Part shown: positions 7,462 to 50,434 of the stretch, piece by piece
Layout: each line of letters starts with the position of its first letter
Position numbering within the stretch: position 1 is the first letter of the stretch
Assembly: GCA_002897115.2 (NCBI GenBank)
Contig: BCIH01000001.1
Span: 1,850,039 to 1,914,038, forward strand
Source of the DNA: Prototheca cutis
Lineage: Eukaryota; Chlorophyta; Trebouxiophyceae; Chlorellales; Chlorellaceae
Length of the DNA stretch: 64,000 nt
Direction of reading: 5' to 3'
Made by a program: the position numbers and the translations under genes
The notes under the pieces: generated by a model
Databases searched by the model: none
What the model was told of the DNA's origin: nothing
What the model saw: the letters and a program-made list of their open reading frames with translations, nothing else

Positions 7462-8353
7462 ATGGTGCGCCGGTGCCCCTACCGTGCCGGGGGTGCTGGT
7501 GCGATCTGGAAGGTCCCATGACGCGCTTGGGCATTTTATGTACATACGCACTTCCATACAACCCTACAGGGGCTTTGGCTGTCGCGGCTGCTGTCCCTCT
7601 TTGGAGACACCGAAGCCAGGATCCTGGTGCTGGGCCTGGACAATGCCGGCAAGACCACCATTCTGTACCGCCTGCACATGGGCGAGGTGGTCCAGACCAT
7701 CCCCACAATTGGGTTCAACGTGGAGACGGTGACCTACAAAAACATAAAGTTCCAGGTCTGGGACTTAGGCGGCCAGACCAGCATCCGGCCCTACTGGCGC
7801 TGCTACTACCCGTACGCTTTATGGCGGTGTCGTTGGGAGCTGCTAGAAAGATATTTGGTTGGTTGGGTTGCGCTTTAGAATGTTTGAATGTGTTTGTTTG
7901 TGGGCAGAGGTAGGCACGAATGGTGTCAGGCCCCTCTGTCGGCCGGGCCTGTGTACTGTATCGCACCATCCCCCGCATTCACTGACATGACCCCCCCCCC
8001 CCCCCCCCAACACACACCTCAACGTACCTCAACACTCCCCCTACCAATGCAACAGGAACACGCAGGCAATCATTTACGTGGTGGACTCGTGCGACGCGGA
8101 GCGCCTGCCCACCAGCCGGCAAGAGTTCCAGGCTATCCTGGCCGAGGAGGAGCTGCGCGGTGCAGCCCTGCTGGTGTATGCCAACAAGCAAGACCTGCCA
8201 GGCGCGCTGGATCAGGCACAGGTGGCTGAGGGGCTTGGGCTCAACGGCATCCGGAGCCGGCCCTGGGCCATCTACCGCACATCGGCCACCAAGGGCGAAG
8301 GCCTGTTTGAGGGCCTGGACTGGCTGTCCACCACACTCAAGGCGCGCTCATGA
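7462..8353 (+). CDS. ARL1: ARF-like small GTPase ARL1
   Basis: Golgi/trans-Golgi GTPase that recruits GRIP-domain tethers. Exons 7462-7464, 7570-7811 and 8056-8353 give 180 residues; ARL1 is usually about 181. Visible motifs: P-loop GLDNAGKT, switch [13 protein letters not shown], switch [23 protein letters not shown] and SATKG (the SAK-type box). The start is inferred: exon 2 begins [16 protein letters not shown] straight after an acceptor, and an ATG followed at once by a gtgcgc donor at 7462 supplies the initiator, so the protein starts Met-Gly with Gly2 available for myristoylation. The first coding exon would then be a lone ATG. An 18-C run lies in the second intron. Confidence 0.9.
7991..8008. 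repeat. Poly-C run, 18 bases, in ARL1 intron
   Basis: Homopolymer inside the 244-base second intron of ARL1, shortly upstream of the acceptor, so it may act as part of the polypyrimidine tract. Confidence 0.9.
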
Positions 8354-8790
8354 CGTACAACAAACGGCGTCTTATTCGGTCCCCTCTCCCTGGGCCCACC
8401 AGGCTCGACGAGTGGGCCGGCTCCCCTCTTTCTGTGCCGTTGCTGCTGACAACTCTTCCCCTTTCTAGGACAGACAAACTGACCGACTAAACCTTCGTGG
8501 AGAAATTAAAGCAAAGGAGGGAGGGTCGAACAGTCTTTGGTCACGTGGGTCCGAATGATCGGGGGTGGGGTACGATCCCAGAGAACCTGGGGGTGCACCC
8601 CACGAGAGATCCACGAGGGTAATCCAGAAACAAACTGGCCTCACAGCTCATGTTCAATGGTGCTGTTCCGCAGGCCAAAGCCAGCGGAGTATATTGGTGA
8701 TAAAATCATACAAGGTGGAGCGCCTGGGAGGGGGACATGCAAGGGGGGGGAGCTTGGTTTTGCGATCAAAAGGCAGCGGTCTTTTGCCAG
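8354..8790. other. Intergenic, downstream of ARL1 and of the Fanzor ORF
   Basis: Convergent 3' space of about 440 bases between ARL1 (+) and the Fanzor-like ORF (-). The part next to the Fanzor stop (8790 downward) is where a TnpB-type element would encode its guide RNA scaffold. I see no obvious long hairpin and no second copy in the window. Confidence 0.5.
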
Positions 8791-9450
8791 TCAGGACCAG
8801 TCTCTCCCCAGGTGGTGGATGTTCCGCGCGGCGTTGACGTCGCGGTTCCACACCACGCCACAGCTCTGGCACTTGAGGATAGTGTACGTGTTCCGGGCGG
8901 TGCTGCATCCACCCAGGCGCGTATGCGCCTCGCACGCCGAACAGATCTGCCGCGTTGCGCGTTTGGGATCGGCGTGACCAGCAGCCCATCGACATTGTGC
9001 ACGTGTGCATGCGCCTGCCCTGCTCCAACCTCCCCAGGCACCTGCTCGCCAGGCCCACTGCCCACACCCATCCAACCCCGCACCCACAAGACACCCCCAC
9101 ACGTGCGCAACCACCCCAGCGCGCGCCTGCGACGTGCGGAACTCGTCGACCTCTGTCACCAGCAGTCCGTGCGCCTCCCGCATGCGCTTGGCCCAGCGGC
9201 GCCACCCCAGGCTCGGAGGATGACCGGGTGAGTTCTGCCTGAAGCTGGCATTGCCCATGAACACGACTAGCCTGCTGGGCTGGTGCCCTGTGCAGGCAAT
9301 GACGTCCTTGATGGATTTGTCCATGGCCATGTACCTCATCATGTACACATCAAACGCGGCCTTCCTCCATTTGTAGCTGCAGGTGACGTCGAGCAGGGCG
9401 CCGAACGAGAAACCGGCATAATCGCGGAGAGACAACTCCCATTTGCATCC
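8791..9450 (-). CDS. Fanzor-like (eukaryotic TnpB family) nuclease, C-terminal half
   Basis: Fanzors are RNA-guided DNA nucleases related to transposon TnpB. This open segment carries the family's C-terminal signature in order: RLVVFMGNASFRQNSPGHPP, then VTEVDEFRTSQ (catalytic Glu region and conserved TS), then a zinc ribbon CSAC...LKCQSC, then GVVWNRDVNAARNI (RuvC-III Asp). Between TSQ and ICSAC lie 180 in-frame bases (9126-8947) that look like an unspliced CAG|GC-AG intron; removing them restores family spacing. Upstream the frame meets a stop at 9453. No RuvC-I motif or ATG start is visible, so either 5' exons are unrecognised or the copy is truncated. It lies between ARL1 and the four-TM gene. 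Confidence 0.75.
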   Translation of the reverse strand, partial: GCKWELSLRDYAGFSFGALLDVTCSYKWRKAAFDVYMMRYMAMDKSIKDVIACTGHQPSRLVVFMGNASFRQNSPGHPPSLGWRRWAKRMREAHGLLVTEVDEFRTSQARAGVVAHVWGCLVGAGLDGCGQWAWRAGAWGGWSRAGACTRAQCRWAAGHADPKRATRQICSACEAHTRLGGCSTARNTYTILKCQSCGVVWNRDVNAARNIHHLGRDWS

Positions 9451-9930
9451 TCAATCCCCGAAATAGCTTCATTATCTTGATTTCTGGAGTTGACAGGCGT
9501 TGCAAGGGCCTACACGCGCAGTTTGGTGGCTTCTTTCTCGGCAGCTGAGCAGACCCCGAACGTTGAAGGGTGATTGCCCACGAGCGCGCTCCTTTCTTAC
9601 CCCGCCCTGTTCTCAGACTGGTCTTTTGGTGCGGAATAAATATTTTCGCGCGGCCGTACAAGGGGGTGCTGCGCGGAAGGGCCTGAAAAGGATTTGGGAG
9701 ATTCGTGCCATTCCCGAATAATCTCCCGAACCGCGACCGAACCGCGAGAGCGAGCTCGGAGCCCCGAGGAGCAGCAGGAGAAGTCACCTTCGGGCACAAG
9801 AGAAACTGCTCTACACATACCCATTACGTTTTGAAGAAAGCTAAGGACGTTGAGCATCCAAGGGATCACCTCCACTCCGGGAATTTCGTTCCCCTGGCTT
9901 GGCCGAAGCCGGGCCGCGAGTCGCTCCAGC
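9451..9930. other. Region between Fanzor ORF and four-TM gene
   Basis: 480 bases that would hold 5' exons or promoter of the Fanzor-like gene and the promoter of the four-TM gene. Minus-strand ORFs here (for example PRKKPPNCACRPLQR) show no recognisable Fanzor N-terminal or RuvC-I motif. Confidence 0.45.
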
Positions 9931-10428
9931 ATGAAGTCGATCACCTGGATTTTGACCCTCTTCTACCTCCTTCAGGTGCGCGTTATGACTTTGTAATGTG
10001 ATTTTGTGCTGCGTGGCCACGGTCCCATGGCGGTCAGTGGTGCGCCAGGCCCTGACACGCTTTGCGGACACCCCCGTGCGCGCACCCCCGCAGGTTGGAC
10101 TGGCTGCCTATGTGCTCGTGGCGACGGCCATTCACCTCCAGGGCATCACCTGGACGGATGTCAACTCTGAAATTGTGGACACGGTGAACAATGCCCAGTG
10201 TCTGCTGGGCAGCAACATGAACTCTACCAGCCTGTGCACCTACACCTACATCGTGGCCGGTGCTTCCATTATCGCGTCGATCCTACTGAGCATCGTGCTG
10301 GTGCGTTTCCCTATAATTGCTCGGAGTGTTGCGCTGTGGAGCTGGAGGTGCATGCTTGTGCGTGATTCATGTGCTAGTGTTCAAAGCGAGGGCATGCCAT
10401 TATCCTGGTTGTGCGCACGCGTGTGTAG

Positions 10429-10481
<53 letters not shown>

Positions 10482-42061: not shown

Positions 42062-42165
42062 CATGTGATGCGCTCCAGATCAGCAAGTTGCGAGGGGCCC
42101 CCCATCCCACCGGTGGTTGAGCAGACAATCCCCGGGTCGAACAGAAAACCCAAATATCATGAAGA

Positions 42166-42525
42166 GCAAAAATAGTGCCACCAGCTCAGCCAGCAACAGC
42201 GTCACATCACCCGGGGGGTTGCTGGGCATCCCTGATGGCTGTGAATTGTCAACCCCCCACAGGGCAAGAGGAAGGTGGACCACCTCAATGATGGACCACC
42301 AAGGTGTGACAATTGTCGTACCAGGCTCAATTTCCAAAGCCTTCTAAAACCTCCTTGCAAGACCTGTCCTGCTGCCAAGAAGGAACCCAACCCATTCTCT
42401 GAGCGGCGTGGCCAGGGAATGCGGGGGCAAACAGGCAATTTGTTTGGGAGACATGCCCTTGCTGTGCAGGTGGGAGTCTTCTGACGAATCTTGAGAAGGT
42501 TTCATCATTTTTGCCCTGCCCTGTA
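42166..42525. repeat. Dispersed repeat, copy A
   Basis: Two arms match a second copy at 49526-50115 in the same orientation. Left arm 42166-42300 contains ccagctcagccagcaacagc, ggttgctgggcatc, gtgaattgtca and caatgatggaccacc. Right arm about 42363-42525 contains gctgccaagaaggaaccca, ttctctgagcg and ttgctgtgcaggtgggagtc. The 62 bases between the arms replace about 300 bases in copy B that carry a Fanzor-like end. By eye the arms are roughly 85-90% identical. Copy A therefore looks like an internally deleted (non-autonomous) member. Confidence 0.8.
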
Positions 42526-49158: not shown

Positions 49159-49525
49159 GACGCTCCCTGCAAATCCATAATCCGAGGCTGTCGATACCGG
49201 TTATGGGGCTTCTAGTTCTGGATGCCTTTCCAGGGGCCTTTCGCCTGCCCGGTACCGCCGTTCTCCGACACCACAGAATGCACCGGACGGATCACTTCCG
49301 ACTTGTCAGGCAATGCCGCGCCATGCTGCAAACACTGCGCATTGTGGGCATGATCTCGTGCAGAGCCCGCCCATGCATTTTTGTGAAGGGCTTGCCCGTG
49401 TCTCTGTGTTGGACACCGCTTGCGTAATTCCCTTTTTGCTGTGGCCCACCGGGCGCGCGGCGTGTTACGCCATCGTCATCACAGGAGAAATGATCGATCG
49501 AATGAGTTACAGAGTGCCATGCATG
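49159..49525. other. Intergenic, 5' of SDP1-like gene
   Basis: About 370 bases that should carry the lipase promoter. It is bounded on the right by repeat copy B. No specific element recognised. Confidence 0.5.
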
Positions 49526-49699
49526 GCAAGAATAATGCAACCAGCTCAGCCAGCAACAGCGTCACATCACCCCGGGGGTTGCTGGGCATCACTGGTGGCT
49601 GTGAATTGTCACCCCCCACCGGGCAAGAGGAAGGTGGACCACCTCAATGATGGACCACCTCCGGGGCTGTTTTTCCTTTCCCGGGGAAGGGAAGGAGCC

Positions 49700-49719
49700 C
49701 TGGGGGTTTCGACCCCCAG
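49700..49719 (-). other. Perfect hairpin downstream of the Fanzor-like fragment
   Basis: Seven-base perfect stem CTGGGGG/CCCCCAG around a 6-base loop, 44 bases beyond the Fanzor-like stop on the minus strand and within copy B only. It could belong to a guide-RNA scaffold; this is inference from position. Confidence 0.4.
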
Positions 49720-49762
49720 TTGGGAAGGCTGTAACCCCCCAGGATGGATGGATGGATGTTCA

Positions 49763-50029
49763 TCAGCACTGCGGCGCTGGGCGCTGGAAGCACAGAGGCC
49801 ACTGGCCGGTCTTCCGCAGGCTCTGCACGATGTGCCTCATGCTCAGACACGCCATCAAGTCTCGGTTCCAGAGACGATGCTCGCTGTTCGGGGGCCGGCA
49901 CTTCTCGTTGGTGCAGCACCAGCTGATGGCACACCGCTGTGAGTGTCTGCTCTCTGCATGACCTTCCCTGCTGCCAAGAAGGAACCCAACCCATTCTCTG
50001 AGCGACGCGGCAAGGGAATGTGGTCAAAC
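49763..50029 (-). pseudogene. Fanzor-like C-terminal fragment in repeat copy B
   Basis: The minus-strand frame is open from about 50029 to TGA at 49765-49763. It reads SWCCTNEKCRPP, then HRLWNRDLMACLSMRHIVQS, then GQWPLCFQR. This is the C-x-n-C zinc ribbon plus RuvC-III (NRD) plus G..P..F.R end seen in Fanzor/TnpB-like proteins. Nothing upstream supplies the RuvC-I or Glu motifs, and the right arm has stops in this frame before it, so it is a fragment. Its sequence differs clearly from the Fanzor ORF at 8.8-9.45 kb. The family call rests on short motifs. Confidence 0.5.
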
Positions 50030-50115
50030 AGGCATTTTGTTTGGGAAATATGTCCTTGCTGTGCAGGTGGGAGTCGACGAATGTCCAGAAGATTTCATCA
50101 ATTTTGCCCTGCACG

Positions 50116-50434
50116 GTACACTTGAAGAGGATAGAATGCAACGGGGATCAGCCCTAGTGATGAAAGGGGGAAACCACCAAAAGGAATGAGAGCAAGGACA
50201 GGCAAACCAGATGGTGTAGGAGTTGCTGCTGTCCATGAAATTCCTCAAACGTGAGGGATGCCATGGCACATGTGATTGCGATGCAGCACATACCGTTGGG
50301 CTTTGGAATCCCAGTCAACCATCCCAGTACAGGGATGGCTGCTTGTTGATTTTTTTTGCAAGAGGGTTGTCTCCTGCGGGGTGTCCCGGCTCCGGGCACT
50401 CTCGTCCTTTTCCGCGGTGCACACGCTTGCTCGT
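50116..50434. other. 3' flank of the CAMTA gene
   Basis: About 320 bases between repeat copy B and the CAMTA stop, expected to be CAMTA 3'UTR. No TGTAA on the minus strand was found. The minus-strand frame continuing past the stop is not homologous to ankyrin or IQ regions. Confidence 0.45.

Follow-up and report, generated by a model that had tools for sequence, protein, structure and literature searches.

Fanzors carry a RuvC-I DPG motif and an alternative catalytic glutamate just before the zinc finger (Yoon et al. 2023, PMC10711439), and Bao and Jurka 2013 (PMC3627910) summarized their sequence as the pattern D-X(125,275)-[TS]-[TS]-X-X-C4-X(5,50)-RD. The closest described elements are those of Spizellomyces punctatus and Chlamydomonas. 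Saito et al. 2023 (PMC10432273) described ghost Spu-1 loci that lack the gene and retain the omega RNA region together with the two ends; Spu-1 has a conserved CA before its left end and the TAM CATA, and the sections of that paper available to us give no transposase inside the element. The Chlamydomonas CRe-1/2/3 elements show internal deletions, variable 5' ends and, following a fixed motif, duplications of ~7-19 bp; the same account also covers fungal Fanzor1 elements, which have 9-bp duplications and were assigned to MuDr (PMC3627910). In Auxenochlorella a Fanzor element is the most abundant repeat of the genome (Plant Cell 2025, PMC12636532); that paper was the only one found by our literature search on Fanzor and Prototheca.

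We analyzed 64 kb of Prototheca cutis DNA (bases 1850039-1914038 of contig C1, G+C ~61%; the window) against a genome of 19.89 Mb in 23 contigs. With high confidence, we regard one locus in the window as a non-autonomous, internally deleted, ghost-type copy of a family of Fanzor-carrying DNA transposons, and by analogy it resembles the Spizellomyces ghost loci and the deleted Chlamydomonas elements closely enough to appear one more case of a known kind. Like the Spu-1 ghosts, as described in PMC10432273, the short copies have both ends and the right-end region without a working Fanzor gene and stand beside full-length copies, and no transposase was found inside the element in either family. 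Before the left end Spu-1 has a conserved CA, and some of our copies have YCG. Unlike the Spu-1 ghosts, to the extent that a comparison by description allows, the short copies here keep the last exons and an intron, have poor terminal repeats and are flanked by duplications of ~7-11 bp. With CRe-1/2/3 (Fanzor1) as described in PMC3627910 they share a green algal host, a Fanzor gene with exons and introns, internal deletions, 5' ends that vary, and variable duplications behind a target motif, which, again by description, is TTTT in Chlamydomonas and, in some of our copies, (T/C)CG. The Auxenochlorella repeat comes from a possibly related genus, and the available text of that paper (PMC12636532), with which we compared by description, describes neither deleted classes nor ends. 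The parts of the window copy are as follows.

About 8561 to 9713, minus strand: non-autonomous Fanzor-element copy of class B, ~1.15 kb (blastn to class-B and longer loci with common ends; the right flank diverges abruptly; ends refined by the imperfect duplication)
9399 to 9713, minus strand: 5' end segment of the element, which aligns with the initial ~300 bp of the longer copies (113 candidate places, 40 of them scored)
9396 to 9405, minus strand: deletion junction TTCGGCG/CCCTGC with ~2 bp of microhomology
9127 to 9398, minus strand: rest of the Fanzor RuvC exon (GNASF...VDEFRTSQ) by sequence comparison, with the alternative catalytic Glu codon at 9142-9144
8947 to 9126, minus strand: probable intron, GC...AG, 180 nt (splice bases kept, length out of frame in some copies, profile score higher once removed)
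8791 to 8946, minus strand: last Fanzor exon by PF07282, with the CSAC...CQSC zinc ribbon, the RuvC-III Asp (GAC, 8839-8841) and the stop TGA (8791-8793)
8561 to 8790, minus strand: right end with the 3' noncoding tail, which would hold any omega RNA scaffold (94 candidate places, of which 40 were scored; z=-3.0 for the fold of the last 150 nt)
8565 to 8603, minus strand: predicted terminal hairpin ending ~4 nt short of the right boundary (folds of five right ends and an 18-copy alignment fold)
9714 to 9723, minus strand: left copy of the probable target-site duplication, GATTATTCGG (9/10 identity to the right flank)
8551 to 8560, minus strand: right copy of the probable target-site duplication, GATCATTCGG, pairing with 9714-9723

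The open reading frame at 8791-9450 (minus strand) runs from stop to stop over 219 amino acids, and the motifs that had been read in it, GNASF...GHPP, VDEFRTSQ, CSAC...CQSC and WNRDVNAARNI, are present in the order claimed. The earlier note took them for the C terminus of a Fanzor/TnpB nuclease, and the profile check that it proposed agrees: the unspliced frame matched Pfam PF07282 (Cas12f1-like_TNB) with 46.8 bits and an E-value of 3.4e-12 (cut-off 26.3), which together with at least 151 matches in this genome (188 candidates, of which 150 were scored) places the assignment far beyond chance. A C4 zinc ribbon is followed by RD (CSAC...CQSC-GVVWNRD). The RuvC-I DPG motif of the published Fanzor description (PMC10711439) is absent from the window copy, which also lacks the D of the Bao and Jurka pattern. 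NCBIfam TnpB models gave E=9e-6 and weaker with the unspliced frame, under their whole-protein cut-offs.

The frame probably contains a 180-nt GC-AG intron at 8947-9126, between DEFRTSQ and ICSAC. We scanned 19 loci for both motifs and could measure the intron in 14. The GC start is present in all 14 and the AG end in 13 (L010 ends in AT); lengths range from 170 to 279 nt, and in four copies (L030, 182; L031, 194; L033, 170; L036, 173) the length is no multiple of three. Once splicing is assumed, the alternative catalytic Glu stands upstream of the zinc finger in DEFRTSQIC, with six residues between it and the first zinc Cys, matching the Fanzor description in PMC10711439. The spliced product of 141 residues also scored higher than the unspliced frame, with 57.3 bits (E=1.7e-15) against PF07282 and 40.3 rather than 25.2 bits against NF040570 (guided_TnpB). 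Its best relative among solved structures was the TnpB-like protein L79 (E=1.4e-4), with Parasitella Fanzor 1 at E=0.94; the unspliced frame found nothing below E=0.13 in the same kind of search, and a profile of the RuvC exon gave three weak matches (E 0.75-6.1), none of them a nuclease. A protein search with the 141 residues returned seven candidates, one of them a metagenome protein 92% identical over 47%. Searches of viral and genome contigs gave 60 and 18 pattern matches, of which none was confirmed, and residues 130-600 of the L007 frame found no usable relative among 7997 scored candidates. An AlphaFold model of the unspliced frame had a mean pLDDT of 41.7 and was discarded. A second Fanzor-like family, ~53-54% identical over the C-terminal half, was also seen (L025, G000:C12:290287; L026, G000:C7:276453).

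The suggested search of the same genome for fuller paralogues and shared ends yielded ten longer relatives, all of which we read (L029-L037 and L039), with ends in common with the window copy. Near-complete matches to the 219 residues were of two kinds, starting at query residue 1-3 or at residue 15-17, the latter being the longer elements. Seven of these have both ends mapped and measure 4.1-6.5 kb, another, interrupted by an assembly gap, spans 8.4 kb, and L033 and L036 are without paired ends; several longer copies contain runs of N. GIDPGRK, the RuvC-I motif, was present in all four longer copies in which the RuvC exon was aligned, three of which are 88-90% identical to L035, and in L035 174 residues separate its D from the TS of DEFRTSQ. 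In the 3' part of the Fanzor frame of six longer copies, pN/pS was 0.27-0.51 per 90-codon window, values that are not diagnostic alone because some antisense frames dip equally low; over the last exons of ten copies it was 0.31. One longer element (L029, G000:C5:1136700-1146600) has a 616-bp tandem duplication (97.6%) beside an assembly gap, which may be an assembly artefact.

Of the 40 left ends that were scored, 18 had a partner among the scored right ends, at distances of 1.12-1.17 kb (three), 1.78-1.89 kb (six), 3.2 kb (one) and 4.1-6.5 kb (seven), with one pair at 8.4 kb across the assembly gap. The second deleted size, ~1.8 kb, consists of ~1.5 kb of the 5' end joined to the last ~350 bp, as fully read in L040 and L041, which are among its six end pairs. 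As expected of this class, at least 56 among the matches listed cover only residues 160 onward at 60% identity or more.

The window copy is the element's 5' ~315 bp fused to its last ~840 bp, segments that lie about 3.0-5.3 kb apart in the longer relatives. The junction was read in nine copies (the window copy, L009, with L010-L016 and L038) and falls at the same point in all nine, with one substitution in L011, so that the deletion probably arose once and then spread. Recurrent independent deletion is unlikely, given a junction identical to the base with only ~2 bp of microhomology. Retroposition was also rejected: the intron is retained, and the genome search yielded one reverse-transcriptase match. 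The stretch GCKWELSLRDYAGFSFG at the start of the frame is, as judged by alignment, the 5' end of the element in a chance reading frame and not Fanzor. Both ends are homologous to those of the Fanzor element and no functional Fanzor gene lies between them, RuvC-I and the N terminus being deleted; with these gone, the window copy cannot make an active nuclease. We propose that a deletion of ~3-5 kb in an ancestral longer element removed, among other parts, the N-terminal half with the RuvC-I aspartate, and that the short form, in which the two ends and the noncoding 3' tail survive, would have been moved in trans by another enzyme to the places, at least nine, where it now stands, inserting with a target duplication of ~7-11 bp. 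Its tail may still yield omega RNA for full-length Fanzors.

The earlier note had placed a possible element-encoded guide RNA in the 3' flank, and the position holds up: the element ends at ~8561, the putative scaffold would lie within about 8561-8790, and a guide would begin just below 8561. In 13 class-B and longer copies, the tail 51-170 bp from the right end gave p=0.037-0.080 per 30-bp window versus ~0.105 in the intron, with 0.192 at 171-200 bp and 0.114 at 21-50 bp. When class-C copies are included, however, in a set of nine, the same stretch gave 0.093-0.161, no more conserved than its surroundings, which weakens the case from conservation and led us to grade the omega RNA reading down. 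In four of the five copies tested the terminal 150 nt have a more stable fold than expected by chance; z-scores against dinucleotide shuffles were -3.0 (window copy), -3.3, -5.0, -4.2 and -1.6, compared with -0.2, +1.8 and -0.9 for the intron, left end and exon of the window copy. A 19-row alignment folded at -52 versus -26 +/- 4 for 30 column shuffles, in which dinucleotides were not kept. RNAalifold of 18 copies gave -53.5 kcal/mol with a slightly unfavourable covariation term, and one of 48 predicted pairs was changed on both sides. The terminal hairpin is found in the minimum-energy fold of four of five right ends and in the centroid of all five, across three length classes, as well as in the 18-copy alignment fold, and it ends 2-4 nt ahead of the right boundary in the five copies. 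This arrangement is the one an omega RNA scaffold would show, though it could equally mark a transposition end.

It is possible, and we hold it tentatively, that the 3' tails of ghost copies are transcribed as omega RNA and load full-length Fanzors in trans, with every copy directing the cut at its own empty site. The fold scores, the hairpin adjacent to the boundary and the tail conservation in the class-B and longer copies are in line with this, as is the precedent of Spizellomyces ghost elements with working omega RNA scaffolds (PMC10432273). The near absence of two-sided pair changes, the loss of the conservation signal once class-C copies are included and a search of the tail against Rfam that found no match at E<=1 all speak against it, and a terminal hairpin may also serve transposition.

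The right end of the element is sharp (...GGGATCGTACCCCACCC), pairwise difference rising to 0.736 outside it, and the left end is looser, varying by ~30 bp in our own reading of the alignments. Exact flank duplications of 7-11 bp were present in 9 of 23 copies, compared with 15 of 506 mismatched flank pairs at 7 bp or more; the other 14 copies are without an exact duplication of that length. In the nine exact duplications the shared string begins with CG after T (seven) or with CCG (two), that is, with YCG in all nine; for comparison, 7.4% of the window's dinucleotides are CG. There is a slight bias in this sample, as L040 and L056 reach 7 bp only if a C is counted that may come from the element's C-run. 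A match of at least 9/10 between flanks was found in 5 of 24 copies (L015, L035, L037, L058 and the window copy) versus 1.45% of 552 mismatched pairs. The duplication of the window copy, at 9/10, is imperfect, and CG is absent before the insertion in this copy and in L058. As copies differ by ~10%, decay of duplications is to be expected, and other modes of insertion are also possible.

The enzyme that would move these elements was sought within them and in the genome. Eight frames of longer elements showed no recognized transposase domain. The duplication size roughly fits the 9 bp of Mutator, but the MULE transposase PF10551 had no match in the genome, in a search that responded in 3 of 14 controls; Helitron PF14214, hAT PF05699 and KDZ PF18758 also had no genome match, but these searches, silent in 14 of 14 controls, are uninformative. 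A minus-strand frame in the 5' part of a longer element (L030:2916-4059, HSLEDSVIDGLVRRYMLEDPHAAKDDLLRFTHSK...KKRKNGRRERSRQKYKRR) is a candidate second gene. Similar frames, partly interrupted, are present in at least L029, L031, L032, L034 and L039-L041, and the frame has no Pfam match at E<=1.

Alternatively, the short copies may be one-ended Helitron-like products, as proposed for Chlamydomonas CRe-1/2/3, with a fixed 3' end, a variable 5' end and variable duplications. The fixed right end, the ~30-bp variation on the left and the varying duplication lengths recall the comparable pattern in PMC3627910. We nevertheless find this doubtful: 3' ends are in excess in CRe-1/2/3 as described there, whereas first-look candidates here numbered 113 left and 94 right ends, with no 3' excess (40 of each scored, query lengths differing), no Helitron end was recognized, and the search for Helitron_like_N, silent in all its controls, gave no match. 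A more inclusive picture would have Fanzor persisting mainly as a swarm of fixed-size ghosts with a terminal omega RNA hairpin, each insertion supplying its own guide and full-length Fanzors patrolling empty sites in trans, with (T/C)CG as the TAM and with movement by Fanzor or the second minus-strand gene in place of a conventional transposase. Taken whole, this is unlikely.

The surroundings of the element had been described as a gene desert, which does not fit the neighbouring frames: one of the Arf GTPase family ends at 8353, ~210 bp from the right end, while on the other side a probable ORF, two tested pieces of which gave no Pfam match, seems to start at ~9931. The left end is ~215 bp before the probable ATG of this plus-strand ORF (9714-9931), so the element may sit in a promoter or 5' leader. 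A fragment at 49.8 kb, earlier taken as Fanzor-like, had no Pfam match at E<=10 and turned out to be part of another interspersed repeat of ~600 bp (49514-50120, minus strand) with sharp ends, a partial second copy near 42158-42424 and a WNRDLMACLSMRHI stretch that resembles Fanzor; these tests do not support the Fanzor label. This repeat is very abundant in the 20-Mb genome (40 of 375 candidate places scored by DNA, 150 of 391 candidates by protein). Long G or C runs at 831-928, about 1679-1800 and about 10430-10478 of the window are possibly sensitive to assembly.

We considered whether the truncated copies encode a selected short RuvC-II/III and zinc-ribbon protein, for example an RNA-binding regulator of Fanzor. 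The frame is free of stops over 136 codons in all eight class-B copies compared (one codon of L038 is partly gapped), and pN/pS between these copies is 0.42. Changes private to single copies, 21 nonsynonymous and 9 synonymous (L038 alone has 13 of the 30), match the expectation without selection (N 0.69, S 0.28, stop 0.04), so the constraint seems inherited from source elements; longer copies gave a similar ratio of 8:4, in a test of low power per copy. The frame moreover opens behind a stop just before GCKWEL, with its first ATG internal, at about residue 37. A functional short protein, hinted at by the pN/pS value and the missing stops, is thus very improbable and was rejected. In a tree of the right part, class B is split (three changes), L010 and L013 grouping with the longer L030 (100/99), although a single clade is not rejected (p-AU 0.138); in the left part class B is mixed with others (four changes). 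As class B is one clade in neither tree, recombination or gene conversion must be invoked, and inherited constraint plus mixing is the simplest reading of the remnant coding pattern. That the locus is an intact gene with 5' exons missed in 9451-9930, conceivable for a gene with introns, is scarcely credible, for 9399-9713 is the element's far 5' end rather than Fanzor exons, the RuvC-I exon of longer copies falls within the stretch deleted here, and two upstream frames had no Pfam match; of the two possibilities raised by the earlier note, truncation stands and unrecognized exons do not, the 3.0-5.3 kb gap and the shared fusion point indicating that the RuvC-I exons are deleted.

The internally deleted, ghost-type copy in the window belongs to a family that bears on what Fanzors do for eukaryotic transposons. 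The algal genome is compact and holds longer copies, two deleted sizes, readable insertion footprints and a folded tail, a concrete test set with a predicted scaffold, a guide predicted for each copy and a predicted TAM. Since transformation by homologous recombination is reported for Auxenochlorella and Prototheca (PMC12636532), such tests would be practical in this group.
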